The position numbers were made by a program, and so were the translations under genes. A DNA stretch of 64,000 nucleotides from Alphaproteobacteria bacterium (GTDB lineage: Bacteria > Pseudomonadota > Alphaproteobacteria > RF32 > CAG-239): contig JAGBDC010000026.1 of the NCBI GenBank assembly GCA_017937705.1, positions 51,830 to 115,829 of the forward strand, given 5' to 3'. Below the pieces are notes generated by a model. That model made no database searches and had not been told where the DNA came from. It saw only the letters and a program-made list of their open reading frames with translations. Positions 47,401-64,000 of the stretch are shown here, in pieces. How positions within the stretch are numbered: the first letter of the stretch is position 1; every line of letters begins with the position of its first letter.

Positions 47401-47428
47401 TATATACAACCTTTTTTTATCTCGTCAA
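47401..47428 (-). promoter_or_regulatory. tRNA operon promoter
   Basis: On the minus strand TTGACG (47428-47423), 16-base spacer, TATATA (47406-47401), then tRNA-Cys about 28 bases on. Confidence 0.6.
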
Positions 47429-47518
47429 TAACTTTTTTTGCATAAATGGTAAAAATTTGTTTTTTTTGCCCTAATTTATTCTATTATCTCATAAAATAAT
47501 TTTGTGAAAGGTATTAAA

Positions 47519-49209: not shown

Positions 49210-49243
49210 ATAAAAAAACGGATGAAAAGTTGTTAAAAAGCTC

Positions 49244-49272
49244 TTGACTAATCATACTTTTTGGCATATTTT
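49244..49272 (+). promoter_or_regulatory. tRNA promoter, now upstream of the partial tRNA copy
   Basis: TTGACT (49244-49249), 17-base spacer, TATTTT (49267-49272), about 14 bases before the partial tRNA copy at 49287. Confidence 0.55.
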
Positions 49273-49284
49273 CACTTTCGTCCG

Positions 49285-49309
49285 ATGGATCCTTAGCTCA
49301 GTTGGTTAG
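49285..49309 (+). repeat. Truncated 5' copy of the tRNA(CAT) gene
   Basis: The 25 bases ATGGATCCTTAGCTCAGTTG.. are identical to 49517-49541, the bases just before and the first 23 of the full tRNA gene. After GGTTAG the sequence leaves the tRNA. It is not a functional tRNA. Confidence 0.85.
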
Positions 49310-49516
49310 CTTGACGACAAAAAAGTTGCCTTACGGCAAGTTTTTATAGGAAAGGCGAAGCGTAGTTAAGTTGCAAAATCAACAAAGTGATTGTAGCAAC
49401 TGTTACAAGCGAGCGACAGGAACAAAGTTAATGAGGCTTTGCCGAATTTTACGAAGTGACTCGGGCCCGCTCTTTTATCGATTTTATGTTTTATAGCGAT
49501 AGTTAGAGCAAAGAAA
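49310..49516. other. Roughly 207-base insert between partial and full tRNA copies
   Basis: Non-coding stretch with a small hairpin TTGCC-TTAC-GGCAA (from about 49324), a longer imperfect hairpin (TTGCAAAATCA with TGATTGTAGCAA) and several GCGA/ACGAAG blocks. It ends TAGTTAGAGCAAAGAAA, which contains GTTAGAGC, as in the tRNA D-arm. I find no gene and no known element. It looks like an insertion associated with duplication of the tRNA 5' part. Confidence 0.5.
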
Positions 49517-49518
49517 AT

Positions 49519-49595
49519 GGATCCTTAGCTCAGTTGGTTAGAGCGGGCCGCTCATAACGGTCTGGTCGCCTGTTCGAGTCAGGCAGGATCCACCA
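49519..49595 (+). tRNA. tRNA with CAT anticodon (Met or Ile2)
   Basis: GGATCCT/AGGATCC acceptor, D-arm GCTC/GAGC, anticodon arm GGCCG-CTCATAA-CGGTC (anticodon CAT), T-arm GCCTG-TTCGAGT-CAGGC, encoded CCA. It is either elongator tRNA-Met or tRNA-Ile2 (lysidine-modified CAT). The GGATCCTTAGCTCAG start resembles Ile2 genes I know, but this is not decisive. Initiator tRNA is excluded because the acceptor end is fully paired. Confidence 0.93.
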
Positions 49596-49596
49596 C

Positions 49597-49627
49597 TAAA
49601 AAAGCCATCTGAACAGATGGCTTTTTT
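49597..49627 (+). terminator. tRNA terminator
   Basis: AGCCATCTG (49603-49611) pairs with CAGATGGCT (49614-49622), followed by TTTTT. Confidence 0.85.
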
Positions 49628-49663
49628 GTATACAGAAACAATTACGGAATATCCGCCCTATCT

Positions 49664-49924
49664 TTATGATTGTCTTAACCAATTTACTTCTGTTTGTGTT
49701 AAATTAAATGATGCCCAATCATTCAATTCAGAAACAAAAAGTTTGTCATTAGTGTCAATTTTTGTTTTAAGATGGTCTCTTATGTAAGATGTTGAATTAA
49801 AACTTTTTATTATCCAACAAGATTCCATTGGATGGATATTATCGTAAGAATTTAAGGTTTTATACAAGTCATCATAATTTCTTCCTGGTTTTCTTAAATC
49901 ATAATTAATCACGTATTTAGCCAT
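49664..49924 (-). CDS. SinR/Cas2-like ferredoxin-fold protein
   Basis: An 86-residue protein starting MAKYVINYDLRKPGRNYDDLYKTL, then MESCWIIKSFNSTSYIRDHLKTKIDTNDKLFVSELNDWASF. This is the pattern of the small family annotated SinR, related to Cas2 and VapD. Members have Asp after the first strand (YDL here) and are often beside defence or toxin genes. GAGG ribosome site. No CRISPR repeats or cas1 here, so a CRISPR role is not indicated. It is the first gene of the accessory region. Confidence 0.65.
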   Translation of the reverse strand: MAKYVINYDLRKPGRNYDDLYKTLNSYDNIHPMESCWIIKSFNSTSYIRDHLKTKIDTNDKLFVSELNDWASFNLTQTEVNWLRQS

Positions 49925-50187
49925 TTTTTACCTCACTTTCTTGGCTTTATTATTAAAAATCAATTGACAAACCAAGAAAAATGACTATCACTAGAGGTGC
50001 AAAGAATAGCGCAAGTCATGTTTCTGATTTGCCAGTTAATGAGCTTGGAATCTATCAAGCTCATTTTATTTATATGAAAAGCCCAAAACTTGTCAAGAAG
50101 TTTTTTTCTTCTGGAACTAATTTTCATCTTGTGTTTTTGTTTTTTATATGCTATAAAGTTTAATACTCAACAAAATAGGATGTAAAA
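49925..50187. other. Intergenic stretch before the restriction island
   Basis: About 260 bases with no convincing gene. TTGACA-16-TATCAC (49964-49991 region) might be a promoter. A hairpin terminator follows at 50040. It may encode a short untranslated RNA between them, but nothing recognised. Confidence 0.4.
50040..50070 (+). terminator. Hairpin terminator upstream of the island
   Basis: TGAGCTTG (50040-50047) pairs with CAAGCTCA (50056-50063), followed by TTTTATTT. Confidence 0.75.
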
Positions 50188-50763
50188 ATGAGATTATCAG
50201 ATATAGCTGAAGTAAGAATAGGACACAACTTTAGAAGAGAATTGATTTCTCTTGAAAAAAAAGAATGCATCGTATCCACCATTCCTGTAGTTCAGCCCAG
50301 AGATGTTAAAAATTTCAACCATATCAATACCTGTAATTTAGAAAAAGCAGATGTAGTTAATGCTAAGGAAAAATATTTTCTTTACCAAAACGAAGTTTTG
50401 TTTACAAATAAGGGAGATTTCAAAGCTGCCATTTGGAAAAACAACTTACAAACAATAGCATCAAGTGCATTTTATCGCATTAAGTTGATTAACGAAAAAT
50501 ATTATCCTGAATTTGTTGCTCTATACCTGAGCTCCCCTATTTGCAAATCACAACTAAACTTGCGCCAAAATACTGAACGCGTTAGCACGATAACTATTAA
50601 TGAGCTAAAGCAGATAGATATCCCTCTTCTTCCGTTAGAAAAGCAAAAACAAATTGTTGAGTTGTTTTTACTTTATGAAAAAGAGGTGGATATATTTGAA
50701 AAAATAAAGCAATCCAGAAAAAAACTAATAAACTCAATATTAAGTCAGACTATTAAGGAGTAA
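50188..50763 (+). CDS. Half-size type I specificity (HsdS-like) protein
   Basis: A 191-residue protein with one target-recognition domain (RLSDIAEVRIGHNFRRE.., ending SAFYRIKL..YYPEFVALYLSSPICKSQL) and one helical spacer (IPLLPLEKQKQIVELFLLYEKEVDIFEKIKQSRKKLINSIL). Complete HsdS has two of each, so this is a half subunit that could dimerise or pair with HsdM as in Type I variants with split S. It lies three bases before hsdM, so it is co-translated. Its relation to the full HsdS at 55449 is unclear. Confidence 0.82.
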   Translation: MRLSDIAEVRIGHNFRRELISLEKKECIVSTIPVVQPRDVKNFNHINTCNLEKADVVNAKEKYFLYQNEVLFTNKGDFKAAIWKNNLQTIASSAFYRIKLINEKYYPEFVALYLSSPICKSQLNLRQNTERVSTITINELKQIDIPLLPLEKQKQIVELFLLYEKEVDIFEKIKQSRKKLINSILSQTIKE

Positions 50764-50766
50764 AAA

Positions 50767-52269
50767 ATGGTTAAAATTACGCAAGACGAATTAAATAAAC
50801 TATTGTGGAACGCTGCAGATTCCACTAGAGGAACCGTTGATGGTGGTATGTTCAAAGACTATATTTTAGCCTTTTTGTTTTATAAATATATGAGCGATAT
50901 TAAGCAAGCTGAAGTAAAAAAACTTCAAGAGCGCTATGGAAATGATAAAGAACGTATTGAGCTTTGTCTTAAAAATGCTCGTTTTGTGTTGCCTGAAGGT
51001 GCAAGTTTTTATGATATCTACGAACAACAATATGCAGATAACATTGGTGAACTTATAAACAAAGCACTTCACAAAATTGAAGATGCTAATGAAAGCCATT
51101 TGAAAGGTATTTTTACAGTCGATTTTAACTCCGAAGCCATTTTAGGTCAAACGAACCAACGTAATAAGATGATTAGAGACCTGATTACAGACTTTAATAA
51201 AGTTGATTTGTCTGATGTCGAAGGTGATTTGCTTGGTAATGCTTATATGTATCTGATTGAGCGATTTGGTTCAGATGCAGGCAAGAAAGCGGGAGAGTTC
51301 TATACACCCAAAGTTTTATCTTCATTGCTTGCAAAACTTGCTCAACCAAAACCGGGGGACAGAATTTGTGACCCTGCTTGTGGTTCTGGTGGCCTGTTGT
51401 TGTTAGCCGGAGAAGAAGTTTCTTCTAAAGGTTCAAAAGACTATGCTTTATATGGACAAGAAAAAACCGGTGCAACCTATAACCTTGCTCGCATGAATAT
51501 GTTTTTGCATGGACAAGATTCTGCGCGCATTGAATGGGGTGACACCTTAAACAACCCATTGCTAAAAGAAAATGACCGTTTAATGCAGTTTGATGTAATT
51601 GTTGCAAACCCACCCTTTTCATTAGATAAATGGGGCGAAAAACACCTAGAAAATGATATTTACAATCGTTTTGACAGAGGTATGCCTCCTGCAAGTAAAG
51701 GTGATTATGCATTTATTTCTCATATGATTGCAACAGCCAAACCAAGATCTGGTCGTGTAGCTGTTATTGTTCCTCATGGTGTTTTGTTCCGTGGTTCATC
51801 AGAAGGAAGAATTAGAGAGGCTTTGATTAGAGAAAACATCCTTGACGCAGTAATCGGCTTGCCTAATGGCTTGTTCCAAACAACCGGTATTCCTGTTGCA
51901 ATGCTTGTTTTTGATAGATCAAGAGAACAAGGCGGAGCCAATGAAAATAAAAAAGACGTCTTGTTCATAGATGCTAGCAAAGAGTTTGTTCCTGGTAAAA
52001 ACCAAAACACTCTTTCAGATGAGCATATCAATAAAATCGTTGATACATATAAAAATCGTAAAGAAATTGAAAAATATTCGCATATTGCAACCTTTGATGA
52101 AATTAGCGAAAACGACTTTAACCTTAATATCCCTCGCTATGTTGATACTTTTGAAGAGGAAGAAGAAGTTGATTTAGCAAAGGTTAAGTCTGATATCGCT
52201 TCACTAGAAAAAGAGCTTATTGAAGTTCAAAGCAAGATGAACGAATACCTCAAAGAATTGGGAGTGTAA
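50767..52269 (+). CDS. hsdM: Type I restriction-modification methyltransferase subunit HsdM
   Basis: N6-adenine DNA methyltransferase. The 500-residue product has an N-terminal HsdM helical domain, AGEFYTPKVLSSLLAKL, the SAM-binding ICDPACGSGGLLL, and the catalytic IVANPPFSLDKWG (NPPF). C-terminal helices for contact with HsdS. AAGGAG site. Partners are the half HsdS before it, the full HsdS at 55449 and HsdR. Confidence 0.95.
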   Translation: MVKITQDELNKLLWNAADSTRGTVDGGMFKDYILAFLFYKYMSDIKQAEVKKLQERYGNDKERIELCLKNARFVLPEGASFYDIYEQQYADNIGELINKALHKIEDANESHLKGIFTVDFNSEAILGQTNQRNKMIRDLITDFNKVDLSDVEGDLLGNAYMYLIERFGSDAGKKAGEFYTPKVLSSLLAKLAQPKPGDRICDPACGSGGLLLLAGEEVSSKGSKDYALYGQEKTGATYNLARMNMFLHGQDSARIEWGDTLNNPLLKENDRLMQFDVIVANPPFSLDKWGEKHLENDIYNRFDRGMPPASKGDYAFISHMIATAKPRSGRVAVIVPHGVLFRGSSEGRIREALIRENILDAVIGLPNGLFQTTGIPVAMLVFDRSREQGGANENKKDVLFIDASKEFVPGKNQNTLSDEHINKIVDTYKNRKEIEKYSHIATFDEISENDFNLNIPRYVDTFEEEEEVDLAKVKSDIASLEKELIEVQSKMNEYLKELGV

Positions 52270-52272
52270 CAG

Positions 52273-53355
52273 GTGGAAAAAACAAAAGAAATTGATGGAC
52301 AGCTTATAGACTGGCGCAATAAAACTCTACAATCCATTCCCGAACGTGTTGGACTTGCTTTTTACACCAAAGATAATGGTGATGTAGAAATTGAAGTATA
52401 TATGGCTGATGAAAATATGTGGATGAGCCAGCAAATTATGGCTGATTTATTTGGGGTTGAAGAAAATACAATAAACTATCATATCAAAGAAATTTACAAA
52501 AGTGGTGAATTAGATGATAACGATTCAACTACTCGAAAAATTCGAGTAGTTCGAACAGAAGGAACTAGAGCTGTTAAACGTGATATTCAATTTTATAATT
52601 TAGACGTCGCTATTTCCGTAGGTTATCGTGTTAATTCCATCAAGGCTACACAGTTTAGAAAATTTGCGACCAGAATTCTGCATGAATATATTCAAAAGGG
52701 TTATGTTTTGAATGATATCCGCTTCAAACAAGGCAATAAGTTTGATGATGCCTATTTTGAAGAAATGCTCGAAAGAATTAGAGATATTCGTTTGTCAGAA
52801 AGAAGGATATACTTAAAAATTACGGATATTTTCGCATTATCATCTGATTATGATAAAAATAGTTTGGTGGCAAAAACATTTTTTTCATTTATTCAAAACC
52901 AATTACATTTTGCAATTTCAGGAAAGACAGCTGCAGAGTTAATTTATACAAGGGCAGACAGTACAAAAGAACATATGGGATTAACAAATTGGGCTCACTC
53001 TCCAAATGGTAAGATATACAAGACAGATGTAACTGTTGGTAAAAATTATTTAAATGAAGATGAGCTTCATCAATTAAGAAATGCTGTTTCTGCATTTTTA
53101 GATATCGCACAACTGCGCGCAGAAAGAAAATTGCCAACAAGTATGCAAGATTGGATTGGCTTTATGGAAAATTATTTGAATTTAAATGAATTTCCAGTGT
53201 TAAAAGGATTGGGAAAAATAAGCAAAGAACAAGCTGATGAAAAAGCCATTACAGAATATGAAAAATTTCGCCCCATTCAAGATGCTAATTATATTTCAGA
53301 CTTTGATAGGGAACTTGAACAACTTGAAAAAAAATTAGAGAAGAAAGGGAAATAA
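52273..53355 (+). CDS. RhuM-family protein
   Basis: A 360-residue protein of the RhuM family, often encoded inside restriction or pathogenicity islands: YMADENMWMSQQIMADLFGVEENTINYHIKEIYKSGELDDNDSTTRKIRVVRTEG..RAVKRDIQFYNLDVAISVGYRVNSIKATQFRKFATRILHEYI, then helical C-terminal RxxR-rich part. Function in host interaction is reported for relatives, but the molecular role is unknown. GTG start with GGGAG upstream, four bases after hsdM. Overlapping-type spacing to fic. Confidence 0.9.
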   Translation: MEKTKEIDGQLIDWRNKTLQSIPERVGLAFYTKDNGDVEIEVYMADENMWMSQQIMADLFGVEENTINYHIKEIYKSGELDDNDSTTRKIRVVRTEGTRAVKRDIQFYNLDVAISVGYRVNSIKATQFRKFATRILHEYIQKGYVLNDIRFKQGNKFDDAYFEEMLERIRDIRLSERRIYLKITDIFALSSDYDKNSLVAKTFFSFIQNQLHFAISGKTAAELIYTRADSTKEHMGLTNWAHSPNGKIYKTDVTVGKNYLNEDELHQLRNAVSAFLDIAQLRAERKLPTSMQDWIGFMENYLNLNEFPVLKGLGKISKEQADEKAITEYEKFRPIQDANYISDFDRELEQLEKKLEKKGK

Positions 53356-54399
53356 ATGGAGCATTTTGAAGAATATAAAAAACAAAATGAGCCTGAAAAA
53401 TATAAAAAGGCTGAAAATTGGCGTGTTGCTATCGGTTTACAACAGGTTGATGGCTTAACTCCATCAAAATATTTGATAAATATTGCGAAAGACAATATTG
53501 AAGGCAAAATCTCCATTGACGAAGCAAATGAAAAAGTAGCACAATATTATAAGCAAAATCCGGCAAAAACTCTGCAAGAGCACAATGAAAAAGAAGCTGA
53601 TGAAGTTTCTGCTCGTATTACAAAGCTTTTAAGCACACACACTTTTTCATTTAGTCCGGTTGAGCTTATGTCTATTCATAAAGCTTTGTTTACAGGTATC
53701 TTAAAAGATGAAATTACAGGTAAAATCCGCACTTATGACATTACCAAAGAAGAGCCCATCTTAAATGGTGATACGGTTATTTATGGTCGTTCGGATAGTA
53801 TTCAAGAAACTTTGGACTATGATTTTGCTCAAGAAAAGAAGTTTAATTATCAAGGTCTTTCAAACAAACAAAAGGTTGAACATTTAGCAAAGTTTATCTC
53901 TGGCATTTGGCAGATACACCCTTTTGGCGAAGGTAACACTAGAACCACAGCGGTTTTTGTGATTAAATATCTTTATACCTTAGGGTTTGAAACTAACAAC
54001 GATATGTTTGAAAAATATGCTAAGTATTTCCGTAATGCGCTTGTTCGTGCTAATTATCAAAACCTTAAAAAAGACATTCCTTATACAATGGAATTTTTAA
54101 ATAAATTCTTTGGAAACTTGCTTTTAGATGAAAATAATCTTTTGGACAATCGTGAAATGCAGATTAAAGATGTGAGCCCCAAAGAAGAAAAAAGTTCACA
54201 GAAAAGTTCACAGAAAAGTTCACAGAAAATTTTAGAGTTAATTGTGCAAAATCCCAAAATCACAACAACCGAAATGGCTGAAACTCTCGGAATTTCAAGA
54301 CGAGCAATAGCTAAACAAATAACAAATTTGAAAAACAATAACCTACTCCGTCGTATCGGTCCTGACAAAGGCGGTCATTGGGAAGTTGTGGAGGAGTAA
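53356..54399 (+). CDS. Fic-domain protein with C-terminal winged helix
   Basis: A 347-residue Fic protein. FISGIWQIHPFGEGNTRTTAVFVIKYL carries the Fic motif HPFxEGNxR, so it probably transfers AMP or another phosphate compound to proteins. The N-terminus (LINIAKDNIEGKISIDEA) has an EG segment reminiscent of the inhibitory antitoxin helix, but the usual Ser/Thr four residues before is Lys. A linker with SSQK repeated three times is followed by a winged HTH (ITTTEMAETLGISRRAIAKQI). One base after rhuM. AGGGAAA site. Confidence 0.88.
   Translation: MEHFEEYKKQNEPEKYKKAENWRVAIGLQQVDGLTPSKYLINIAKDNIEGKISIDEANEKVAQYYKQNPAKTLQEHNEKEADEVSARITKLLSTHTFSFSPVELMSIHKALFTGILKDEITGKIRTYDITKEEPILNGDTVIYGRSDSIQETLDYDFAQEKKFNYQGLSNKQKVEHLAKFISGIWQIHPFGEGNTRTTAVFVIKYLYTLGFETNNDMFEKYAKYFRNALVRANYQNLKKDIPYTMEFLNKFFGNLLLDENNLLDNREMQIKDVSPKEEKSSQKSSQKSSQKILELIVQNPKITTTEMAETLGISRRAIAKQITNLKNNNLLRRIGPDKGGHWEVVEE
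54189..54228 (+). repeat. 12-base tandem repeat in fic
   Basis: AGTTCACAGAAA repeats three times in frame, giving (SSQK)n between the Fic domain and the winged helix. Copy-number change would alter linker length without frameshift. Confidence 0.75.
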
Positions 54400-54405
54400 T
54401 GAACT

Positions 54406-54969
54406 ATGAAGATTTTTGAACTACTGAAAAATCCAAAAAATTTAATCATATTTGCAATAACGTGTATAGTTGTTTGCATAGTTGGAGAATATAGAAATTT
54501 TGATTTTGTAGAAATTGGCTCTTTTAAACTTTCTTTTGATTTTATGTTTTTTGCTGCACTAGTTGGAGCTGTTGTTTCTATTGTTATATTGATTTGGAAA
54601 ATTTTGAGTATTTTCTTTTCATGGATAAGAGGTCTTACTTTATTACGTACCTTAAAAAACTGTACGCCTGAAGAAAAAGATTTTTTATATAACCGTGTTT
54701 ATAAAAATGATAATGAATTACAAATAGATATGCGTAACGATAAGTATTTTTATGCTGCAGACGAAAATCCTTCTAGTTGTAAATATTGGTTGTATAAAGA
54801 AAAATTTAATACCAAAGAAAAAGTAATAAAATTTTTAAGACTGTTGGAAAATAAAGAAATTATCAAAAACTTTGGTAATCAATCTATGACTATACCTCCG
54901 CAGGTTTGGAACATTTTGGTAAAATATGCAGATGAAATTTTTAAGGAGAATACCACAAATGTTAAGTAA
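54406..54969 (+). CDS. Membrane protein, possible SieB-like superinfection exclusion factor
   Basis: A 187-residue protein with two N-terminal hydrophobic segments (about 12-28 and 45-75), then a soluble domain with LLRTLKNCTPEEKDFLYNRVYKND..YFYAADENP and VIKFLRLLENKEIIKNF. The layout of two helices followed by a TxEEK..L helix domain resembles SieB-family superinfection exclusion proteins of phages; this is a weak match. Membership in a restriction island fits an anti-phage role. It overlaps the next gene by 11 bases. Confidence 0.55.
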   Translation: MKIFELLKNPKNLIIFAITCIVVCIVGEYRNFDFVEIGSFKLSFDFMFFAALVGAVVSIVILIWKILSIFFSWIRGLTLLRTLKNCTPEEKDFLYNRVYKNDNELQIDMRNDKYFYAADENPSSCKYWLYKEKFNTKEKVIKFLRLLENKEIIKNFGNQSMTIPPQVWNILVKYADEIFKENTTNVK

Positions 54970-55459
54970 TAAAACAAACGACACCAGAACAACAGAACGA
55001 AAACGTTTATTTAACATACTTAAACGCTCAGTTGATGCTGTTTATACTAATTTTTCAAAGGTTATTCAAGTTAAAGGGTTGGAACAGTGTGTTGTGGCTC
55101 TAATATACGCCCATTTATTTCAAAAAATACAATTTTCAGAATATAAAGATTTAGATTTAAATTCTGAATATAATAAAAACTGTGATTCAGTTAAATCAAC
55201 ACCTAATTTTCCCAATGGGGTTCGTCCTGATATTATTTTACATAAAATGTGGAGTAATGATGAAAATAAAATAGCTATTGAATTTAAAGGATGGTGGAAT
55301 AATGACGATGAAAAGGATATTCAGAAATTGAAAGATTTAACTGCTCAAAATGGTACATACAAATATTTGTTAGGTGTCTGGGTATTATTAGAAAAAGATG
55401 CTCCATCTTATAAGTTTGTAATAAATGGAGAAGAAAGGAATAGTCTTGATGCAGAATAA
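54959..55459 (+). CDS. PD-(D/E)xK nuclease-like protein
   Basis: A 166-residue protein with helical N-terminus and GVRPDIILHKMWSNDENKIAIEFKGWWN, in which PD...ExK fits the restriction-endonuclease-like core, then DIQKLKDLTAQNGTYKYLLGVWVLL. Could be a nuclease or an inactive nucleic-acid-binding variant; target unknown. AAGGAG about ten bases before the ATG. Overlaps both the membrane protein before it and hsdS after it (about 11 bases each). Confidence 0.7.
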   Translation: MLSNKTNDTRTTERKRLFNILKRSVDAVYTNFSKVIQVKGLEQCVVALIYAHLFQKIQFSEYKDLDLNSEYNKNCDSVKSTPNFPNGVRPDIILHKMWSNDENKIAIEFKGWWNNDDEKDIQKLKDLTAQNGTYKYLLGVWVLLEKDAPSYKFVINGEERNSLDAE

Positions 55460-56720
55460 TCAAAAAATACCTGAGGGGTGGAGTGTTAAGAAAATTTCTG
55501 ATTTAGGAAATGTTGTATCAGGAGGCACACCTGATACAAATAATCCTGAATATTGGGATGGTAATGTCTTATGGGTTACTCCATCTGAAGTATCAACTTT
55601 ATCAAATCGATTTATTTCAAATACAGAAAGAAAAATTACAGAAAAGGGCTTAAAGGAAAGTTCTGCAAAATTGCTTCCTATCAATTCATTGATAATCTGT
55701 ACTCGTGCAACTATCGGAGATTGTTGTATCAATAAAGTGCCTATGTGTACAAATCAAGGTTTTAAAAATATTATAGTTAAAAATAATAATGTAGATTTTT
55801 TATATTATTTAATTACAAAAAACAAAAATGAATTAATTCGTAAGGCTTGTGGAAGCACTTTCCTTGAGATTTCAAAAAAAGACATTGATAATTTAAAATT
55901 TGCTATTCCACCTTTGCCTGAACAGGAGAAGATTGCGGGGATTTTGGGGACTTGGGATGAGGCGATTGAAAAGCTGTCCGGTTTGATAGAGCAAAAGAAG
56001 CTCCTCAAAAAAGGGCTGATGCAAAGACTCTTAACCGGCAAAACCCGCCTCTCCGGCTTCACTCAACCATGGAAAGAAGTTAAGTTAGGTGAGATTGCAA
56101 AAAAAATAAGTGATAAGAACAACGAAAATTGTTCAAATATAGTTACAATTTCGGCTCAAAATGGTTTCGTTAATCAAGATGATTATTTTAACAAATTTGT
56201 CTCATCTGATACTCTGACTAATTATTACCTTCTGCAAAAAGGAGATTTTGGATATAATAGGAGTTATTCAAGAGGATACCCTTTAGGAGCAATAAAAAAA
56301 CTAAATAATCATGAGAAAGCTGTTGTTTCAACTTTATATATCTGCTTTCGTTCCTTAAAAGATAAGATTAATAGTATTTTTCTTGAACAATATTTTGAAA
56401 CAGGACTTTTGAATAAAGATTTATCTAAAGTTGCCCAAGAAGGTGCCAGAAATCATGGCTTGTTAAATATTACATTAAAAGACTTTTTTTCTGTAAAATT
56501 ATATATTCCAACTGACATTGCCGAACAACAAGCAATTGCTGATGTTTTATCAACTGCTGATGAAAAAATTGACCTTTTGAACAAAAAATTGGAAGTCTTA
56601 AAAGAACAAAAGAAAGGCTTAATGCAACAACTCTTAACTGGCCAAACCCGCGTGAAAGTGAACTATTCTCGTCATTGCGAGCAGAGCGAAGCAATCCAGT
56701 TTAATAATGGAGCATTATAA
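55449..56720 (+). CDS. hsdS: Type I specificity subunit HsdS, C-terminally extended
   Basis: A 423-residue HsdS with two TRDs (about 10-150 and 205-360) each followed by a conserved helix (PLPEQEKIAGILGTWDEAIEKLSGLIEQKKLLKKGLMQRLLTG and AEQQAIADVLSTADEKIDLLNKKLEVLKEQKKGLMQQLLTG). Its last 18 residues (YSRHCEQSEAIQFNNGAL) are encoded by the repeat and element sequence; without the element the frame would stop after TRVKVN. Part of the first helix region is notably richer in GC than the rest, suggesting a mosaic. TAATG overlap with the GIY-YIG gene. Confidence 0.92.
   Translation: MQNNQKIPEGWSVKKISDLGNVVSGGTPDTNNPEYWDGNVLWVTPSEVSTLSNRFISNTERKITEKGLKESSAKLLPINSLIICTRATIGDCCINKVPMCTNQGFKNIIVKNNNVDFLYYLITKNKNELIRKACGSTFLEISKKDIDNLKFAIPPLPEQEKIAGILGTWDEAIEKLSGLIEQKKLLKKGLMQRLLTGKTRLSGFTQPWKEVKLGEIAKKISDKNNENCSNIVTISAQNGFVNQDDYFNKFVSSDTLTNYYLLQKGDFGYNRSYSRGYPLGAIKKLNNHEKAVVSTLYICFRSLKDKINSIFLEQYFETGLLNKDLSKVAQEGARNHGLLNITLKDFFSVKLYIPTDIAEQQAIADVLSTADEKIDLLNKKLEVLKEQKKGLMQQLLTGQTRVKVNYSRHCEQSEAIQFNNGAL
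56667..56704 (+). repeat. Left inverted repeat of the GIY-YIG cassette
   Basis: 38 bases identical to the reverse complement of 57001-57038; begins TCTCGTCATTGCGAGCAGAG and ends GCAATCCAGTTTAA. It is translated as the tail of HsdS (SRHCEQSEAIQ). Confidence 0.95.
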
Positions 56721-57004
56721 TGTCAGCATATGTTTATATTCTCTTTAACCAAAGGAACGGAACATTGTATATCGGAGTTACTGCCAATTTAATAAAAAGA
56801 GTTTATGAACATAAGAGTAAAATAATAGAAGGTTTTACAAAAAGATATGGTGTTGATAAGTTAGGTTATTATGAGGTTTATGATGATATGGAAAACGCAA
56901 TTAAAAGAGAAAAAGCTTTAAAAGGTAGTTCCAGATTGCGTAAATTAAAATTAATTGAAAGTATTAATCCTGATTGGGAGGATTTATATGATTCAATTAT
57001 TTAA
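56720..57004 (+). CDS. GIY-YIG domain nuclease (UPF0213/COG2827-like)
   Basis: A 94-residue single-domain GIY-YIG protein: YVYILFNQRNGTLYIGVTANLIKRVYEHKS with the two tyrosines and catalytic Arg, a later Glu-containing segment (EVYDDMENAIKREKALK) and a C-terminal helix with INPDWEDLY. These nucleases cut DNA at specific or structured sites; free-standing forms are common and sometimes carried on mobile repeats. Start overlaps the hsdS stop (TAATG); stop lies in the right inverted repeat. Possible role: mobilising its own cassette. Confidence 0.93.
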   Translation: MSAYVYILFNQRNGTLYIGVTANLIKRVYEHKSKIIEGFTKRYGVDKLGYYEVYDDMENAIKREKALKGSSRLRKLKLIESINPDWEDLYDSII

Positions 57005-57038
57005 ACTGGATTGCTTCGCTCTGCTCGCAATGACGAGA
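57001..57038 (-). repeat. Right inverted repeat of the GIY-YIG cassette
   Basis: Exact reverse complement of the left copy at 56667-56704; contains the nuclease stop codon at 57002-57004. Confidence 0.95.
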
Positions 57039-57074
57039 TTTGTTTCTATGTAAAAGTGAATTAAGGAGAAAAAC

Positions 57075-57440
57075 ATGGATATTTTGGATAATGTAAAGGA
57101 TGTATATGCTTTAATTAAAAAATTAGGAAATCAAGAACTAGTTGAAAAAATGCTAGATTTAAAAGATCAGATTTTTGAATTAAGAGAAGAAAACAGAAAT
57201 TTAAAAGAAAAATTATCAGAACAAGAATCGTATGATATGTATTTTGAAGATAATATGTATTGGGATGCAAATAAAAAAGATGGACCATATTGTTCAAAAT
57301 GTTGGGATGACAATAAAAAGGCTATTCATTTACACAAATATAATGGAATATATTATTGTCCTGTATGTAATAATAATGTTTCGAAAGAACAACATAATAC
57401 AGATACTTTTGTTGATAGTAATATATACATAAAAATATAA
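57075..57440 (+). CDS. Coiled-coil zinc-ribbon protein
   Basis: A 121-residue protein: helix 1-55 (MDILDNVKDVYALIKKLGNQELVEKMLDLKDQIFELREENRNLKEKLSE), then a zinc ribbon YCSKCWD..HLHKYNGIYYCPVCNN (two CxxC). Frequently seen near restriction or phage-defence genes in my knowledge, function unknown. AAGGAG before the ATG. In the original operon it would have followed hsdS directly; now it is after the GIY-YIG cassette. Confidence 0.78.
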   Translation: MDILDNVKDVYALIKKLGNQELVEKMLDLKDQIFELREENRNLKEKLSEQESYDMYFEDNMYWDANKKDGPYCSKCWDDNKKAIHLHKYNGIYYCPVCNNNVSKEQHNTDTFVDSNIYIKI

Positions 57441-57462
57441 TTAAATAAATCGGAGTAATACT

Positions 57463-60400
57463 ATGACCGCACACCACATTCTTCCTGATTTTGATGAAGC
57501 TAACAGTTCGCAAATTCCGGCGATTTTGCAACTTATTAATTTGGGATATACTTATATTCCAAGACATGAGGTTGATAATTATCGTGATAGCAAAAGCCAA
57601 TATATTTTGCGTGATATTGCAATCAAAGCCTTGCGAGAGATAAATCCGCCAGAAATATCTGATAAAAGTATTGATGAGGCTATTTTTGGATTAGAGAAAA
57701 TAAAGCTTGATGATGGTGTGGTCAAAGCTTCGGAAATTATTTTTTCTAATTTGCTTAGTGGTGTATCTGTTCCCGAAATTATTGATGGCAAAAAAACATC
57801 TCCTCAATTAAGGTTTATAAATTGGGATGAGCCAGAAAAAAATATGTTTCATGTGGTGGCTGAATTTGAAATTGAAGAAGATCAAAATCGTAGACCGGAC
57901 ATTGTTTTGTTTGTAAATGGTATTCCGTTTGCAGTTATTGAGTGCAAAAAAGCGTCTGTTTTGGTTGATGAAGCTATTCATCAGATGATAAGAAATCAAA
58001 AATATACGCAAACGCCAAAGTTCTTTTTGTTCCCACAAATATTAGTTGCAACCAATGTTAATGAAATAAAATATGGAACAATGCTCACTCCATTTGAGTT
58101 TTATTCAGTTTGGAAAGAAAAAAATGCAACAGACACTTATAATCAAAAAGTGTTAGAAAGTATAAATAAACCGGTTGATACAGCTGTTATTAAGAAAATT
58201 GCATCAGATTTATCAAGATATTCTTATATTCAATGTGAAAAAGAAACTCCGTTAGCTCAAGACAGAGGAATTTATAGCCTGTTAGAACCTGCTCGTTTGC
58301 TTGATTTGGTTAGAAACTTTATCATTTATGATAACGGAATTAAGAAAGTTACGCGCTATCAGCAATATTTTGCTATTAAAAAGACAATAGCAAAAATTCA
58401 AAATCAACATGAAAATGGTAAACGTCATGGTGGACTTATTTGGCATACGCAAGGGAGCGGAAAATCTTTAACCATGGTAATGTTGGTTAAAAACTTAATT
58501 GAAACCGTTAACAATCCAAGAGTTATTGTTGTAACAGACAGAACAGACCTTGATATTCAGATTAGAGATACATTTGCGGCTTGCAATATCAAAAAAGGTG
58601 TTCAACAAGCAACATCTTGCGCTGATTTGGTTAAGAAAATTGAATCTAAAACATTAGATGTTATTACAACATTAGTTCATAAGTTTGATAAACCGACAGA
58701 TTTTGTTGATAATGATAACAACATTTTTGTTTTGATTGATGAAGCACACAGAACACAAGGTGGTGATGCTAATGCAATGATGAACAAGATGTTGCCTAGA
58801 GCTTGTCAGATTGCTTTTACCGGAACACCTTTAATGAAAAAAGTTCCCGAACGTTTGAAAGGTAAAGTTGCTTCAAAATCTGAATCTATTCAAAAGTTTG
58901 GCGGTTTAATTGATGAATATACAATATCAGAAGCAGAAAAAGACGGTGCTGTGTTGCCTCTTATTTATCAAGGACGCTTTGTTGACCAGAAAATTGATGC
59001 GATTGCTGATAAATTTTATGAAAGACTTGCTTCAAAATTTTCGGAGAGTGAACGTAAGGACTTTGCTAAAAAATGTATATCAAGTTCTGTTTTGGAAGAA
59101 ACATCTCAGCGTATTGAAATGATAGCTTTAGATGTTAATGACCATTTTATGAAAAACTTTAAGGACACAGGATTAAAAGGTCAGCTTGTTGCTCCAAGTA
59201 AATATGCTGCTGTAATGTTTAAGAAAGCCTTAGATATGCTTGGTGATATAAATTCTGAAGTTGTTATTTCTGATACATTAGCTGATGAAGGCAAAGATGA
59301 TGTAAATGCTACACATAAAAAAGCAGTTACCGAATATTTATCAGAGCAAAAACATAAATATGGTTCTTTGGAAACAAGAGAAAAACAAATAATTCAAGAT
59401 TATAAGAAAAATCCTGAAGGTTGTGAACTCATCATTGTAGTTGATAAATTATTGACTGGTTTTGATGCTCCTCGTGATACTGCATTATATTTGGCAAAGC
59501 AATTAAAAGACCATAACTTATTGCAAGCAATTGCAAGAGTTAATCGTGTATTTGATGGTGATGCAGGTAAGCAAAGTAAAACTGCTGGTTTGATTGTTGA
59601 CTATTCAAAAAATGCTAAAAACCTTAAAAATGCTTTAGAGTTGTTTTCTAACTATGCGCCCGAAGATATTGAAAACGCATTGTTAGATGCTGATAGCCAA
59701 ATTTTTGTGTTGAAGAGTATTTTTGAACGTCTGCATGATGTGTTTAGAGATATCAAAGATGTTAACAATACCAATGCTTATATTGAGTTTTTGAAAGATC
59801 ATGAAAAAGAAAGAGAAGCTTTTTATGATGATGTAAACAAATTTATCAAGCAATTTTCGGTTTGTTATTCGTTGTATGATTTTCATGAGAAAATAAATAC
59901 GGATGATTTGCTAACTTATAAAAAAGACTTGAAAAGATTTATTGAAATTAAGAAAACAACACAGTTAGCTATGGCTGAAAAAGTTGATTTTTCGAAATAT
60001 AAAGACCAGATTTTGAAATTGTTGGATAAATATGTTACCGCAAAAGATGTTGAGGTGCTTTCAAAAGAAATCAGTTTATCTAATATGTATGAATTTAACC
60101 AATATATTGAAGATCAAAAAAATGGCTTATCAGATAAGTCAAAAGCTGATGCAATACTCGCTCAAACCAAAAAGGTTATTCAAGAAAAATATCATCAAGA
60201 TGAGGCTTTTTATGGTAAATTTAGCGAGTTAATTGATAAATTGCTTAAAGATTTGAAAAATGCAAAAAAAGAAGATTTAGAGGCATTGCTTAACCAAGCT
60301 AAAGATTATCAAAAAAATGTTACGGATTATGTTGATAGTGATATTCCTGAAAAAATAAGAGCTGTAAAGATTTATCACCCATTTTATCGTAATATTAAAG

Positions 60401-60636
60401 ACTTTTTCCAATCCACAGGCGATGGATATGGTGAAATTGTTGAACACATAGTTGATATTATCAAATCGAAAAAAGTTGTAGATTTTCAAAATAACACAAG
60501 TGTAAAAAGAGACATTCTTTTTGCTATTGAAGATTATTTGTTTGATGAGGTTGAAGAAGATTTATCAGCATCAGTCGTTGAACAGATTGCACAAACAGCA
60601 TGGAATTTGGCAGTTCAAAACAAGGATATGCTCTAA
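57463..60636 (+). CDS. hsdR: Type I restriction endonuclease subunit HsdR
   Basis: A 1057-residue translocating endonuclease: N-terminal PD-(D/E)xK region RRPDIVLFVNGIPFAVIECKKAS, helicase motor with TQGSGKSLTMVML (Walker A), IDEAHRTQGGDAN (DEAH), AFTGTPLM and C-terminal motor motifs such as KLLTGFDAPRDTALY and LLQAIARVNRVFDG, then a helical C-terminus. Works with HsdM and HsdS to cut unmethylated DNA after ATP-driven translocation. CGGAG ribosome site. It ends TAATG into the YgjP-like gene. Confidence 0.96.
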   Translation: MTAHHILPDFDEANSSQIPAILQLINLGYTYIPRHEVDNYRDSKSQYILRDIAIKALREINPPEISDKSIDEAIFGLEKIKLDDGVVKASEIIFSNLLSGVSVPEIIDGKKTSPQLRFINWDEPEKNMFHVVAEFEIEEDQNRRPDIVLFVNGIPFAVIECKKASVLVDEAIHQMIRNQKYTQTPKFFLFPQILVATNVNEIKYGTMLTPFEFYSVWKEKNATDTYNQKVLESINKPVDTAVIKKIASDLSRYSYIQCEKETPLAQDRGIYSLLEPARLLDLVRNFIIYDNGIKKVTRYQQYFAIKKTIAKIQNQHENGKRHGGLIWHTQGSGKSLTMVMLVKNLIETVNNPRVIVVTDRTDLDIQIRDTFAACNIKKGVQQATSCADLVKKIESKTLDVITTLVHKFDKPTDFVDNDNNIFVLIDEAHRTQGGDANAMMNKMLPRACQIAFTGTPLMKKVPERLKGKVASKSESIQKFGGLIDEYTISEAEKDGAVLPLIYQGRFVDQKIDAIADKFYERLASKFSESERKDFAKKCISSSVLEETSQRIEMIALDVNDHFMKNFKDTGLKGQLVAPSKYAAVMFKKALDMLGDINSEVVISDTLADEGKDDVNATHKKAVTEYLSEQKHKYGSLETREKQIIQDYKKNPEGCELIIVVDKLLTGFDAPRDTALYLAKQLKDHNLLQAIARVNRVFDGDAGKQSKTAGLIVDYSKNAKNLKNALELFSNYAPEDIENALLDADSQIFVLKSIFERLHDVFRDIKDVNNTNAYIEFLKDHEKEREAFYDDVNKFIKQFSVCYSLYDFHEKINTDDLLTYKKDLKRFIEIKKTTQLAMAEKVDFSKYKDQILKLLDKYVTAKDVEVLSKEISLSNMYEFNQYIEDQKNGLSDKSKADAILAQTKKVIQEKYHQDEAFYGKFSELIDKLLKDLKNAKKEDLEALLNQAKDYQKNVTDYVDSDIPEKIRAVKIYHPFYRNIKDFFQSTGDGYGEIVEHIVDIIKSKKVVDFQNNTSVKRDILFAIEDYLFDEVEEDLSASVVEQIAQTAWNLAVQNKDML

Positions 60637-61319
60637 TGTTTGAAAATTATGACTTTAGAATAATTAAAGAAGACAGAAAATCTTTGTCAGCGGAGGTTTA
60701 TCCTGATTTTCGAATAATTATAAAAGCTCCAATTCAAGCAAAAGATTTTGAAATTGATAATTTTATCAAAAGAAAAACATTATGGATTGATAAGCAATTA
60801 TCATATTTTAAGCAATTTAATGCTCCTGAAAATAAAATTTATGAATCGGGGAGTTCTGCTCTTTACCTTGGACGTCAATATCAGGTTATAATTGAAAAAG
60901 CAGCTCTTAAAAATGTTGTAAAGCTGTCTAATAATAAAATTTATGTTTTATCATCTGCACCTCAAAAGATTGATGAAATAAATAAAGCATTTCAAGAGTG
61001 GCTTGTGAAACGAGCAGAAATTATTTTCAATGAGCGTCTTAACGAATGCATAAAAGCATTTCCAGATGTAGAAAAACCAGTATTAAAAATAAGAAAACTT
61101 AATAAACGTTGGGGAAGCTATTTGAAAAAGCATGAAATCGTTTTGAATCCGGAATTAATAAAGGCTAGCAAAAAATCGATTGATTATGTAATTTATCATG
61201 AGCTATGCCATATTTATTATGATAGACATACGGAAGATTTTTATAACCTACTATCAATTAAAATGCCTAATTGGGAAAAGGTAAAAGATAAAATGGAATT
61301 AGACTTGCTGAGTTACTGA
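60636..61319 (+). CDS. YgjP/DUF45-type metallopeptidase
   Basis: A 227-residue protein of the COG1451 (YgjP/DUF45) group: RIRKLNKRWGSYLKKHEIVLNPELIKASKKSIDYVIYHELCHIYYDRHTEDFYNLL, with HELCH zinc motif. It is commonly found after hsdR in Type I loci. TAATG overlap with hsdR places it in the operon; function in restriction unknown. Chosen start 60636 overlaps the stop. Confidence 0.9.
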   Translation: MFENYDFRIIKEDRKSLSAEVYPDFRIIIKAPIQAKDFEIDNFIKRKTLWIDKQLSYFKQFNAPENKIYESGSSALYLGRQYQVIIEKAALKNVVKLSNNKIYVLSSAPQKIDEINKAFQEWLVKRAEIIFNERLNECIKAFPDVEKPVLKIRKLNKRWGSYLKKHEIVLNPELIKASKKSIDYVIYHELCHIYYDRHTEDFYNLLSIKMPNWEKVKDKMELDLLSY

Positions 61320-61437
61320 GGAAAAACGAAGAAGTCAAATTATTTATGAAAAAATAGTGTTAGAACATTGTAATTTATAAAATTTTCGGATAGATTATGA
61401 TAAGTGATGGTTGTATATTGATAATTTGGATATAAAA

Positions 61438-61596
61438 ATGGAATATGATGTAGTATATGCCAGTTCTGTTGAAGGATTAATTAAAAAAGTAAATCAGATG
61501 ATTGCTGAAGGTTGGCAACTACAAGGTGGTATGACTGTTAGCATTCAAGATGGTACCGAATACTATTTTTATCAAGCGATGGTGAGAAATGTTTAA
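61438..61596 (+). CDS. DUF1737-domain small protein
   Basis: A 52-residue protein: MEYDVVYASSVEGLIKKVNQMIAEGWQLQGG, then EYYFYQAMVRNV, matching DUF1737 (short domain with AEGWQLQGG and QAM). Probably cytoplasmic, function unknown. GGATAT is a weak ribosome site. Lies after the island; may be its last member. Confidence 0.7.
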   Translation: MEYDVVYASSVEGLIKKVNQMIAEGWQLQGGMTVSIQDGTEYYFYQAMVRNV

Positions 61597-61705
61597 AAGT
61601 GGTATTGGAAAATTTATGAACAAATGATGATACGCTAGTTATTTTTTAAAAGTCAATTTGACCTTTATATTTTTATAAGTATCGGTAATATTTTACCCCA
61701 ACCCA

Positions 61706-61936
61706 ATGGGGCTTACGACCTATAAAGTTTGTAAAGCAATTGCAAACAATGAGGACTACAATATTTACTATAATAACGAATACCAAAAAGCTTACAATTT
61801 ATTCAAAAACAAAATAGATAGTTATGAATATGGTCGATGTCGTCTAGGTTTAGTTTCCTTGATCGCCGTATTAAATCCCAATCAAAATCAAATTAAAGAA
61901 AAACAAATAAATGATTTTTTCAAAAATAATAACTAG
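61706..61936 (+). CDS. Doubtful small protein
   Basis: A 76-residue frame (MGLTTYKVCKAIANNEDYN...) with no Shine-Dalgarno site and no recognisable family. The composition is plausible for coding, but the evidence is weak; it could be a remnant. A hairpin terminator follows at 61989. Confidence 0.3.
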   Translation: MGLTTYKVCKAIANNEDYNIYYNNEYQKAYNLFKNKIDSYEYGRCRLGLVSLIAVLNPNQNQIKEKQINDFFKNNN

Positions 61937-62215
61937 AAAGAATGTATTAAATTAAAATTTTCCCAAAAAAGTTAAAAAAAATCATAATAAAAAGATACTC
62001 ATCACGAAGCTAGAGGGTATCTTTTTTTGCCAAACAAATCTGATAGTAAAATTCAAAATTTATATGTAGCTATATGAAAGCTGTTTTTTTATTGCATGTT
62101 TATTTTTTAGAATATATGCTTTTATAAAACGCATAATTTCTTTTGAATGAAGCTCACTTTAGTTATAAAATACCATATAAATTATTATTGAAACTTGATT
62201 AAAACGGAGTAGACC
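61937..62215. other. Intergenic region before the oxidoreductase gene
   Basis: Holds one terminator (61989-62028) and AT-rich sequence; the GGAG of the CoA-disulfide-reductase-like gene is at its right end. Nothing else recognised. Confidence 0.5.
61989..62028 (+). terminator. Terminator after the island
   Basis: AAAAGATAC (61990-61998) pairs with GTATCTTTT (62017-62025), followed by TTT. Confidence 0.75.
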
Positions 62216-63811
62216 ATGAAACTATTAATTATCGGTGGTGGGGCAGCAGGGGCTAGTTGTGCAACCAGATTTAGAAGATTAAATGAACAAGCGCAAATTA
62301 TCATATTGGAAAGGACGGATGAAGTTTCTATTGCTAATTGCGGTTTGCCTTATTATATTTCCGGTGTGATTGAAAAGCGTGATAAAATATTGGTTTCAAC
62401 CCCTCAAAAATTCAAGTCATGGTTTAACATTGATGTAAAACTTAAAACAGAAGTCGTTCAAATTAACAAAGAAGAAAAGTATGTTATAACAAATACTGAT
62501 GAGAAAATTTCATACGATTATTTAGTGATTGCAACGGGAGCTACTCCCATCGTGCCAAATTTTGAAGGTTTAGATAAAAACAAAACTTTTGTGGTGCGTT
62601 CACTTAATGATGCTGATAAAATCAAATCCCATATTAAGGAAAACAACATTCAAAAGGTAGCCGTTATCGGGGGTGGTTTCATTGGCGTGGAGGTTGCCGA
62701 AAATATGATAGAAATGGGCTTAAAAACCTCTTTGATTGAAATGAACAATCAGATTTTGGCACCTTTGGATGCGGAAATGGTGCAACTTGCCCACAAAGAA
62801 ATGCAATCTAAGGGGATTGATTTGATTTTATCAGATGGTGTTCAAAAGTTTAACGGCAATAAAATTATCTTAAACTCCGGCAAAGAAATTGAATTTGAGA
62901 TGTGTATTTTAGCAATTGGTGTTAAACCTGAAATCCGATTGGCAGAAACAGCCGGACTTCAAACTAACCGAGGTATTATTGTTGATGAAACATTAAAAAC
63001 TTCTAATGAGTTTATTTATGCGGCTGGCGATAATGTAGAAATAAAAGATTTTGTCAGTTTGCAAAATACTTTAGTGCCATTGGCTGGACCGGCTAACCGT
63101 CAAGGGCGTATTATTGCTGATAACATTAACGGGGTGCGTTCTGCATATAAAAATACACAAGGTTCATCTGTTGTTAAAGTATTTAGCTTAACGGTTGCAA
63201 GTTCAGGAAACAATGAAAAGCAATTAAAACAAAAGCAAATTCCATATTTGAAAACGTATGTTTATTCACGCTCTCACGCCGGATATTATCCGGATGCCGA
63301 TGCAATTTTATTTAAGTTGTTGTTCAACCAAGACGGCAAAATTTTGGGTATTCAAGGAATAGGCAAAAGTGGTGTTGAAAAAAGAATTGATGTCGTTGCT
63401 ACCATTATGCGAAATAACGGCACTGTTCAAGATATGATTGATGCGGAACTTTGTTATGCGCCACCGTATTCCAGTGCTAAAGATCCGGTTAATGTGTTGG
63501 GCATGAATGCTGATAATATCATAAACGGATTGGTAAAACCTGCATTTATTGAGGATTTGCAAGATGCTCTTATTATAGATGTTCGTCATCCAACAATGTA
63601 TCAGCAAGGTACTGTCCCAAATGCCATTAACATTCCGATTATGGAAATCAGACAACGTTTGAATGAAATTCCAAAGGATAAAAAAGTGGTCTTGTCTTGT
63701 GCAACGGGATATACCAGTTATTGTGCTTCCAGAATTTTAATGCAAAACGGCTTTGATAATGTTTATTCCTTTATGGGCGGATATGATTTTTATAAAGCGG
63801 TAAAATCTTAA
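62216..63811 (+). CDS. CoA-disulfide-reductase/NADH-oxidase-like flavoprotein with rhodanese domain
   Basis: A 531-residue FAD enzyme: GGGAAGASCATRFRR (FAD), IANCGLPYYISG with redox Cys42, VIATGATPIVP, VAVIGGGFIGVEVAENM (NAD(P)H), IYAAGDNVE, SRSHAGYYPDADAILFKLLF and a C-terminal rhodanese domain (DALIIDVRHP..VVLSCATGYTSYCASRIL). Cdr-type enzymes reduce CoA disulfide or persulfides; a fused rhodanese suggests sulfur handling. CGGAG ribosome site. It is separated from tuf by a terminator. Confidence 0.92.
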   Translation: MKLLIIGGGAAGASCATRFRRLNEQAQIIILERTDEVSIANCGLPYYISGVIEKRDKILVSTPQKFKSWFNIDVKLKTEVVQINKEEKYVITNTDEKISYDYLVIATGATPIVPNFEGLDKNKTFVVRSLNDADKIKSHIKENNIQKVAVIGGGFIGVEVAENMIEMGLKTSLIEMNNQILAPLDAEMVQLAHKEMQSKGIDLILSDGVQKFNGNKIILNSGKEIEFEMCILAIGVKPEIRLAETAGLQTNRGIIVDETLKTSNEFIYAAGDNVEIKDFVSLQNTLVPLAGPANRQGRIIADNINGVRSAYKNTQGSSVVKVFSLTVASSGNNEKQLKQKQIPYLKTYVYSRSHAGYYPDADAILFKLLFNQDGKILGIQGIGKSGVEKRIDVVATIMRNNGTVQDMIDAELCYAPPYSSAKDPVNVLGMNADNIINGLVKPAFIEDLQDALIIDVRHPTMYQQGTVPNAINIPIMEIRQRLNEIPKDKKVVLSCATGYTSYCASRILMQNGFDNVYSFMGGYDFYKAVKS

Positions 63812-63862
63812 GCAAACCGCAAAAGATTAGTTTATCCGGATTAATTTCAACCACTATCACAA

Positions 63863-63897
63863 CAAAAAACCGCTTTGAGTTTTCAAAGCGGTTTTTC
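63863..63897. terminator. Bidirectional terminator
   Basis: AAAAACCGCTTTGA pairs with TCAAAGCGGTTTTT (63864-63896), between convergent genes. Confidence 0.85.
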
Positions 63898-63920
63898 TAA
63901 TTTATTCGGTTATATCAAAA

Positions 63921-64000
63921 TTATTTGATAATTTTAGATACAACGCCGGCACCTACGGTACGACCACCTTCACGGATAGCAAAACGTAAACCTTCTTCCA
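63921..64000 (-). CDS. tuf: Elongation factor Tu, C-terminal end only
   Basis: The minus strand from 64000 reads EEGLRFAIREGGRTVGAGVVSKIIK-stop, the conserved end of EF-Tu domain III. The rest lies beyond the window. Confidence 0.96.
   Translation of the reverse strand, partial: EEGLRFAIREGGRTVGAGVVSKIIK

Follow-up and report, generated by a model that had tools for sequence, protein, structure and literature searches.

How does a nuclease gene with no transposase beside it come to stand between two perfect inverted repeats at the end of a restriction specificity gene? The window analysed here, a 64-kb (64,000-nucleotide, nt) stretch of an alphaproteobacterial contig, contains a type I restriction-modification operon in which such a gene, encoding a GIY-YIG protein of 94 aa, directly follows hsdS. 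An earlier note on this DNA had described the locus as a minimal mobile cassette. We found that the repeats resemble CGTC-type repetitive extragenic palindromes (REPs) and that the same arrangement, a small GIY-YIG nuclease gene with CGTC-type REPs in inverted order on its two sides, is widespread, two points which the note had overlooked. We consider it somewhat better than an even bet that the arrangement is a REP-associated GIY-YIG nuclease cassette, that is, a minimal mobile unit consisting of a REP, the gene and a second REP in reverse, which would be analogous to the pairing of REPs with RAYTs (REP-associated tyrosine transposases), with an unrelated enzyme.

The cassette and its insertion at the end of hsdS

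The left inverted repeat (56667..56704, plus strand) contains a diverged CGTC-type REP at 56670-56699 whose CCAG tail faces the gene, the nuclease gene follows at 56720..57004 (plus strand; PF01541, E = 2.5e-16), and the right inverted repeat (57001..57038, minus strand) carries the REP in the opposite orientation, giving a cassette of 372 nt between the outer repeat ends. As the earlier note had stated, the two arms are perfect reverse complements (38/38); arms extended to 44 nt match at 95%, and the only other inverted pair reported in the window, with a seed of 14, arms of at least 24 nt and a distance of up to 2 kb, is a 72% hairpin. The nuclease ATG shares one base with the hsdS stop codon, and the nuclease stop, TAA at 57002-57004, lies within the right repeat. 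The list of open reading frames (ORFs) and the PF01541 match bear out that GIY-YIG is the only gene inside: it is the sole ORF of at least 50 aa lying in the cassette, and the transposase gene of insertion sequences is absent.

Outside the arms stand two copies of a direct repeat, both on the plus strand. The left copy, AAAGTGAACTA at 56655..56665, overlaps the native hsdS end (VKVN), and the right copy, AAAGTGAATTA at 57053..57063, stands before a GGAG that resembles a ribosome site and before the gene downstream. The copies differ by one mismatch in 11 nt, as had been noted, or match at 12/14 positions if extended. Among approximately 6,000 random 30-nt pairs drawn from positions 45000-63930, a 10/11 match was found in 1.15% and a 12/14 match in 0.35%; since about 1% of random pairs do as well, the direct repeat on its own is suggestive only. 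Searching the 1.58-Mb assembly with the whole element gave no match besides its own two arms pairing with each other, so the exact 38-base arms occur here only, and the repeat core (CATTGCGAG..GAAGCAATC) has ten diverged relatives elsewhere in the assembly, with 0 matches for a reversed control pattern.

The position of the cassette was judged against hsdS genes of the same bacterial family. hsdS of the window (plus strand, 55425..56720 as the longest ORF, with an in-frame ATG at 55449 as the likelier start; Pfam Methylase_S, E = 5.4e-42) encodes a protein whose second half has a match in 14 of 153 family genomes, the window's own included, and we compared C-termini at the eight best other loci (L241-L248). 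Seven of them (L241 and L243-L248) end in ...LLTG[K/Q]..RVKVN followed directly by a stop codon, and L242 ends otherwise. The window protein runs on past VKVN for 18 residues (YSRHCEQSEAIQFNNGAL), its final 18 codons passing beyond the native end and through the left repeat. Furthermore, the PADLOC specificity model (418 positions) finishes at residue 402 of 421 (translation from 55455), and the right direct-repeat copy reads on as GTGAATTAAGGAGAAAAACATG, which is the stop/GGAG/ATG layout of L243, L244 and L246. Because the homologue ends, the end of the PADLOC model and the right-copy layout agree, the native HsdS end is placed in the direct repeat, split by the cassette. At the level of sequence comparison this shows that the cassette is an insertion, which gave this HsdS 18 extra residues, as the note had deduced by removing the element on paper; the comparison is with family homologues rather than with a second strain of the same species. 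The case illustrates how an insertion of this sort lengthens a host protein, in this instance a restriction specificity subunit, at its C-terminus.

None of the eight HsdS homologue loci has a nuclease match, and a REP detector run from -60 to +600 nt around each hsdS stop gave one match, tail-less-looking and in the next ORF of L245, which we took as chance. These results bear on intronless homing, an explanation in which the REP, or the REP dimer, is the target of a free-standing homing endonuclease: empty dimers would be cut and the gene placed between the two REPs by repair, so that the REPs are a landing pad and do not belong to what moves. No convincing REP stands at this place in the seven of eight homologues that end at VKVN, and both REPs stand between the direct-repeat copies, which is what a joint arrival of REP, gene and REP would leave. 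Homing in this form seems to us rather improbable; in a two-step variant, the dimer may have arrived first and the gene later. At six of the seven RVKVN-ending loci an ORF of more than 60 aa begins between -1 and +11 of the hsdS stop, and at L243 an ATG at +10 opens a shorter frame; overall, the slot directly after hsdS in L241-L248 holds varying small and medium ORFs.

CGTC-type REPs as the ends of the cassette

The CGTC-tagged REPs described by Di Nocera, De Gregorio and Rocco in 2013 (PMC3733652; itself cited by PMC6006769) share a plan of a CGTC or TGTC tag at one end, an AT-started stem of 8-9 bp, a short loop and a CCA tail, and include dRS3 of Neisseria and RPE-4 and RPE-6 of Rickettsia. 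According to that survey, they are situated mainly downstream of genes and apparently lack a dedicated transposase, the agent of their spreading being left open. The window repeat follows the plan CGTC-ATTGC...GCAAT-CCAG with its tail toward the gene: CGTC is present at 56670-56673 and mirrored at the right, the stem starts with AT, and an unpaired CCAG follows it. From these features we class the window repeats as weak, diverged members of the CGTC type. They differ from typical members in a weaker stem and an undispersed exact arm, and where REPs were detected at the loci examined, the features that they have in common with the type are the GTC head, the stem of the hairpin and the CC(A) tail. 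Two organisms named in the same survey text, Azospirillum lipoferum (L136) and Novosphingobium aromaticivorans (L134), carry the nuclease gene between inverted CGTC-headed repeats.

The exact 30-nt REP core of the window recurs in a viral contig (L301:7638-7720), where it forms a dimer, tails inward, with a spacer of 23 nt that holds no nuclease gene. In the fetched loci, neighbouring dispersed REPs, counted by their hairpins, likewise tend to face each other with their tails (tails-inward 15, heads-inward 4, same direction 13), an orientation that homing into empty dimers would also accommodate. Among six other REPs that were folded, three (L092 from Bradyrhizobium, L101, and L150 from G516) have stems of 8-9 bp. 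The dimer in L301 is apparently intergenic, and a solitary CGTC-type REP at 21118-21154 of the window folds better than the cassette repeats (z-score -2.4).

Recurrence of the arrangement

Relatives of the nuclease were collected in two sets of loci. The first comprised the best 80 of 152 GIY-YIG relative loci in genome contigs, whose record titles name some 18 phyla; these labels are unreliable, as L051, which belongs to the window's family and is identical to G025:C2, is titled Lactobacillaceae, so that names in titles of metagenome-assembled genomes are doubtful. The pooled set, which includes the first loci, holds 203 loci with the gene and 189 distinct genes, 184 of them with 250 nt on either side. 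Each gene was given a pair score, for which mismatches were subtracted from matches in the best inverted pair spanning it, and overlapping windows of the same loci at the same spacing served as controls. A score of at least 16 was reached by 46 of the 77 genes with full flanks in the first set vs 4/1,873 control windows, and by 103/184 genes in the pooled set vs 3/2,546; at a score of at least 20 the pooled figures were 79/184 and 1/2,546. Viral contigs yielded 34 relatives of the nuclease, and the set of loci drawn from them, which has no gene in common with the pooled set, gave 21/27 vs 2/274 control windows. Across 102 elements the median size was 387 nt (10-90% range 356-527).

When the nearest detected REPs of the 184 genes were considered, 48 genes had them tails-inward, 6 heads-inward and 19 in the same direction, and 38 had a REP on one side only; thus, tails-inward prevails (48/73) where REPs stand on both sides. 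In the 48 tails-inward cases the median gap is 22 nt between the REP and the start of the gene and 11 nt between its stop and the REP beyond. The repeat sequence varies between genomes, and the two arms of one gene match each other: for 44 genes in 15 multi-copy genomes the mean score was 14.7 for own pairs and 2.8 for pairs swapped between paralogues, 21/44 own pairs reached a score of at least 16 vs 11/130 swapped pairs, and none of 20,000 within-genome permutations attained the observed sum. The earlier note had proposed a search for other GIY-YIG genes with the same ends; matching inverted repeats surround many of them, and the repeat sequence itself differs from genome to genome.

These data allow a second explanation to be weighed, in which other, RAYT-like enzymes or recombination and replication slippage move or make the REPs and the gene is a trapped passenger, or the REPs serve the gene as terminators or regulatory hairpins. 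The mainly downstream position reported for CGTC REPs (PMC3733652) would suit such a role. The pairing, however, is two-sided and close to the gene, with control windows near zero, and the arms of a gene match each other. Moreover, adjacent tails-inward REP pairs 250-600 nt apart in the fetched loci enclose the nuclease gene in 52 cases and do not in 2, so other genes between such pairs are rare, although the loci were fetched for this gene, and what counts is therefore how few the other pairs are. We regard the passenger explanation as unlikely, at about the same level as homing.

Inverted repeats of 66/67 nt, far longer than a REP, surround the gene at L114:2822-3479, which suggests compound REP structures as ends. 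Among the 12 plasmid loci, L130 and L137 have short pairs only (15/16 and 16/18), and L132 and L133 have none that is convincing.

The GIY-YIG protein

The PF01541 domain spans residues 3-74 of approximately 94. In an alignment of 185 distinct proteins Tyr6, Tyr17 and His31 are invariant, and Arg27, Glu64 and Asn83 are kept in 183, 184 and 183 of them, respectively. Presumably these residues play the catalytic roles that we attribute to their counterparts in the GIY-YIG superfamily, and with the putative catalytic set conserved the enzyme looks active. The only NCBIfam similarity, at 25.7 bits vs a cut-off of 56, is to TIGR01453, a model of group I intron endonucleases. Both this weak similarity and the conserved active-site residues are compatible with homing. 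At E ≤ 0.01 the only sequence match in the PDB is the UPF0213 protein BH0048 (1zg2, E = 0.003), similar in sequence and distantly related. No match was found in 50,697 phage records at E = 1e-5. In a nuclease tree built on few columns and with many weak forks, the genes from the window's bacterial family do not group together and are spread over several clades.

Occupied and empty sites

Related cassettes have empty sites. Azospirillum lipoferum 4B carries the gene, with a REP dimer on each flank, in a sufB-sufC gap of 617 nt, and in A. ramasamyi, A. oryzae, A. sp. B510 and A. thermophilum the same gap, lacking the gene, measures 55-129 nt. Within Shinella the unit is present in WSC3-e and HZN7 and absent in H4-D48, S. 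sumterensis and S. oryzae, the three records fetched out of five listed without it. In Planktothrix agardhii the gene is present in No.66 and absent in PCC7805 and NIES-204; a REP-like array stays at the gene-less site, as homing into pre-existing REPs would predict. In addition, similar genes (85-87% nt identity) were found in unrelated surroundings, namely L063 vs L070/L074 and L125 vs L138. The earlier note had named constant presence at one place, or the lack of any empty site, as outcomes that would tell against a mobile cassette, and neither is what we observed; for the window cassette itself, the empty state is judged from the HsdS homologues.

Because of the divergence of the spacers, the exact ends of the element could not be read from the empty sites of Azospirillum, Shinella and Planktothrix. 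A locus on a plasmid of the Rhizobium K1/93 group (L133) has no inverted pair, and no empty site was seen among 40 of the 125 records listed; for Rhizobium CIAT894 (L131) and Neorhizobium (L138), the flanks in the listed records are too different for an empty site to be read. On Planktothrix agardhii plasmids (L137, L235 and L236) the site lies downstream of a gene annotated as MmeI-like or, in a different record, as BREX pglX, and in the P. agardhii record with the nuclease it lies upstream of DISARM drmA, a neighbourhood of defence genes as in the window.

REP content and gene presence

A strict stem pattern found the CGTC-1 type of REP in 49 of 385 genomes of the class. The nuclease gene is present in 32 of these 49 vs 91 of the 336 genomes lacking strict REPs (Fisher's exact test, p = 3e-7), a co-occurrence obtained as a hand tally of two lists and uncorrected for genome size. 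The other 17 strict-REP genomes, which have no gene at E = 1e-8 and were the only ones covered by a renewed search with a profile, remained empty in 16 cases, and the seventeenth (G508) gave a distant profile match only (E = 4e-5).

Two cruder counts were discarded. A loose pattern, CGTCATN{10,30}ATCCAG, matches 367/385 genomes, many of the matches looking like chance occurrences in coding sequence, and is not evidence. Dimer orientation read from ATCCAG..CTGGAT and ATGACG..CGTCAT in 19 genomes was mixed (tails-inward was the commoner order in 12, tied in 1 and the less common in 6), again with many chance matches.

Evidence that weighs against a mobile cassette

The caveat on the tally and the 16 REP-bearing genomes that stayed empty on profile search, just described, join a number of other observations that count against our preferred explanation. 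Some concern the window itself. The stem of its REP is 5+2 bp instead of 8-9 bp, and as a single strand the repeat folds no better than shuffled sequences (z-score -0.03). Its exact arm is not dispersed in its own genome, where its kin are the ten diverged cores. Poor folding, together with direct-repeat copies that differ and that about one random pair in a hundred would equal, could suggest that a local rearrangement merely duplicated a host REP inversely around a resident gene, with no mobility involved. The same architecture is nevertheless seen with other repeat sequences and in contexts and taxa unrelated to one another, sites with and without the gene exist, and the arms are perfect over 38 nt, and we consider this last explanation very improbable.

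Other observations concern the family. For 81/184 genes the inverted pair scores below 16, as would be expected of passengers, and for 73/184 the detector gave no REP at all next to the gene. Swapped pairs score at least as high as an own pair in several of the multi-copy genomes. Heads-inward order of the nearest REPs was seen in Neisseria (L234), where they are dRS3 copies in an array, and in A. lipoferum (L136), at both loci as part of larger REP groups. L063, one of the cases of the same gene in a new place, has no inverted pair. The putative target duplication of the window is 11-14 nt long with mismatches, and no fixed length was seen across the 102 elements; the signal for a duplication general to them is weak, common stretches of at least 8 nt occurring in 9/102 vs approximately 2.4 expected, some of them REP-derived.

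Finally, the genome richest in strict REPs (G427, with 97) has no gene even by profile. REP-rich genomes of this kind, which also fit the passenger explanation, indicate that REPs can persist, and perhaps spread, in the absence of the nuclease gene. G504, of the same genus as G427 and with 27 strict CGTC-1 REPs, likewise has no detectable small GIY-YIG gene. Many of the dimers listed for G427 have a similar 24-nt spacer, which, with the gene absent, indicates that another mobiliser may exist.

A possible mechanism and its relation to known systems

On the cassette explanation, which takes RAYTs and GTAG REPs as its model, the nuclease would most likely recognise the GTC-hairpin-CCA repeat as a duplex, a cruciform or a single-stranded hairpin, and would nick or cut at or beside the REP, near GTC or CCA. 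Host replication or repair could then copy the whole REP-gene-REP unit to new places; in the window, the unit has entered the gap between hsdS and the gene after it. Short REP-spacer-REP dimers might be copied in trans, and dispersed REPs would be non-autonomous passengers. We infer that the element is mobilised through its nuclease, where the earlier note had suggested mobilisation by the nuclease or by the host, and because the arrangement recurs in many bacteria, the nuclease is a candidate for the missing agent that spreads REPs. Whether the CGTC REP super-family across many phyla, dRS3 and RPE included, has in this single nuclease its dedicated mobiliser, no transposase being involved, is in our judgement evenly balanced.

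A close parallel is the RAYT/REPtron system, with which the cassette shares a small enzyme gene between inverted REPs (in the window, in 48/184 genes by REP detector and in 103/184 by inverted repeats), REP dimers that resemble gene-less derivatives, and several enzyme-REP pairs per genome. It differs in that the enzyme is of GIY-YIG and not of HUH/tyrosine type (Pfam gives only GIY-YIG, and NCBIfam the sub-cut-off intron endonuclease, with no IS200/IS605-like transposase), in that the tag is CGTC and not GTAG, and in that we infer mobility here. Free-standing GIY-YIG homing endonucleases are known from phage T4 (the Seg type). The window enzyme resembles them in its GIY-YIG core, compactness and scattered distribution, and differs in consisting, over its ~94 aa, mostly of the Pfam domain and in being bracketed by REP inverted repeats. 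Insertion sequences and miniature inverted-repeat transposable elements (MITEs) have in common with the cassette the terminal inverted repeats (38/38), a small size and, possibly, the target duplication of the window; differences are the lack of a transposase gene, the REP-like palindromic repeats and the absence of a duplication of fixed length across the family.

Among the matches listed in a search of the open-access literature, which covered titles and abstract openings and left preprints and most subscription journals outside, no paper links GIY-YIG nucleases with REPs, although this does not prove priority. The main text of a 2024 review of prokaryotic MITEs (PMC10969869) contains neither GIY nor CGTC, and in the part of PMC9465073 that concerns us RayT and a GIY-YIG gene appear in separate rows of a gene list. 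What appears to be new is that REPs are paired with an enzyme unrelated to RAYTs, and we put the odds that the pair constitutes a separate class of element at even. For the stronger statement, that it is an unrecognised mobile class and a second, independently evolved REP-enzyme system beside RAYT/GTAG, we see the case as being equally strong on either side. CGTC REPs occur in many bacterial genomes, and a 94-aa nuclease between matched inverted REPs offers a concrete and testable candidate for their spreading. If the proposal is true, the cassette would be among the smallest self-contained mobile genes, REP dimers would be explained as its gene-less derivatives, and a GIY-YIG nuclease would have a transposase-like role in bacteria.

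The surrounding operon

The type I restriction operon comprises hsdM (50767-52269), a RhuM-family gene, a Fic gene, two ORFs with no assignment, hsdS, a small gene and hsdR. The RhuM-family (PADLOC PDC-S05) and Fic-domain (PDC-S72) genes lie at 52273-54399, inside the operon between hsdM and hsdS. Directly upstream of hsdM, a separate ORF of 191 aa (50188-50763) has weak similarity to type I specificity subunits, besides the full hsdS. Beyond the right direct repeat and outside the cassette, an accessory gene (57075..57440, plus strand) encodes a protein with two CxxC pairs that looks zinc-ribbon-like by eye; it has no match in Pfam or NCBIfam and is present in 3/153 genomes of the family to which the window belongs. 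Besides the cassette gene, the assembly has a single GIY-YIG match, within a frame of 605 aa, which, judged by its size, is probably UvrC.
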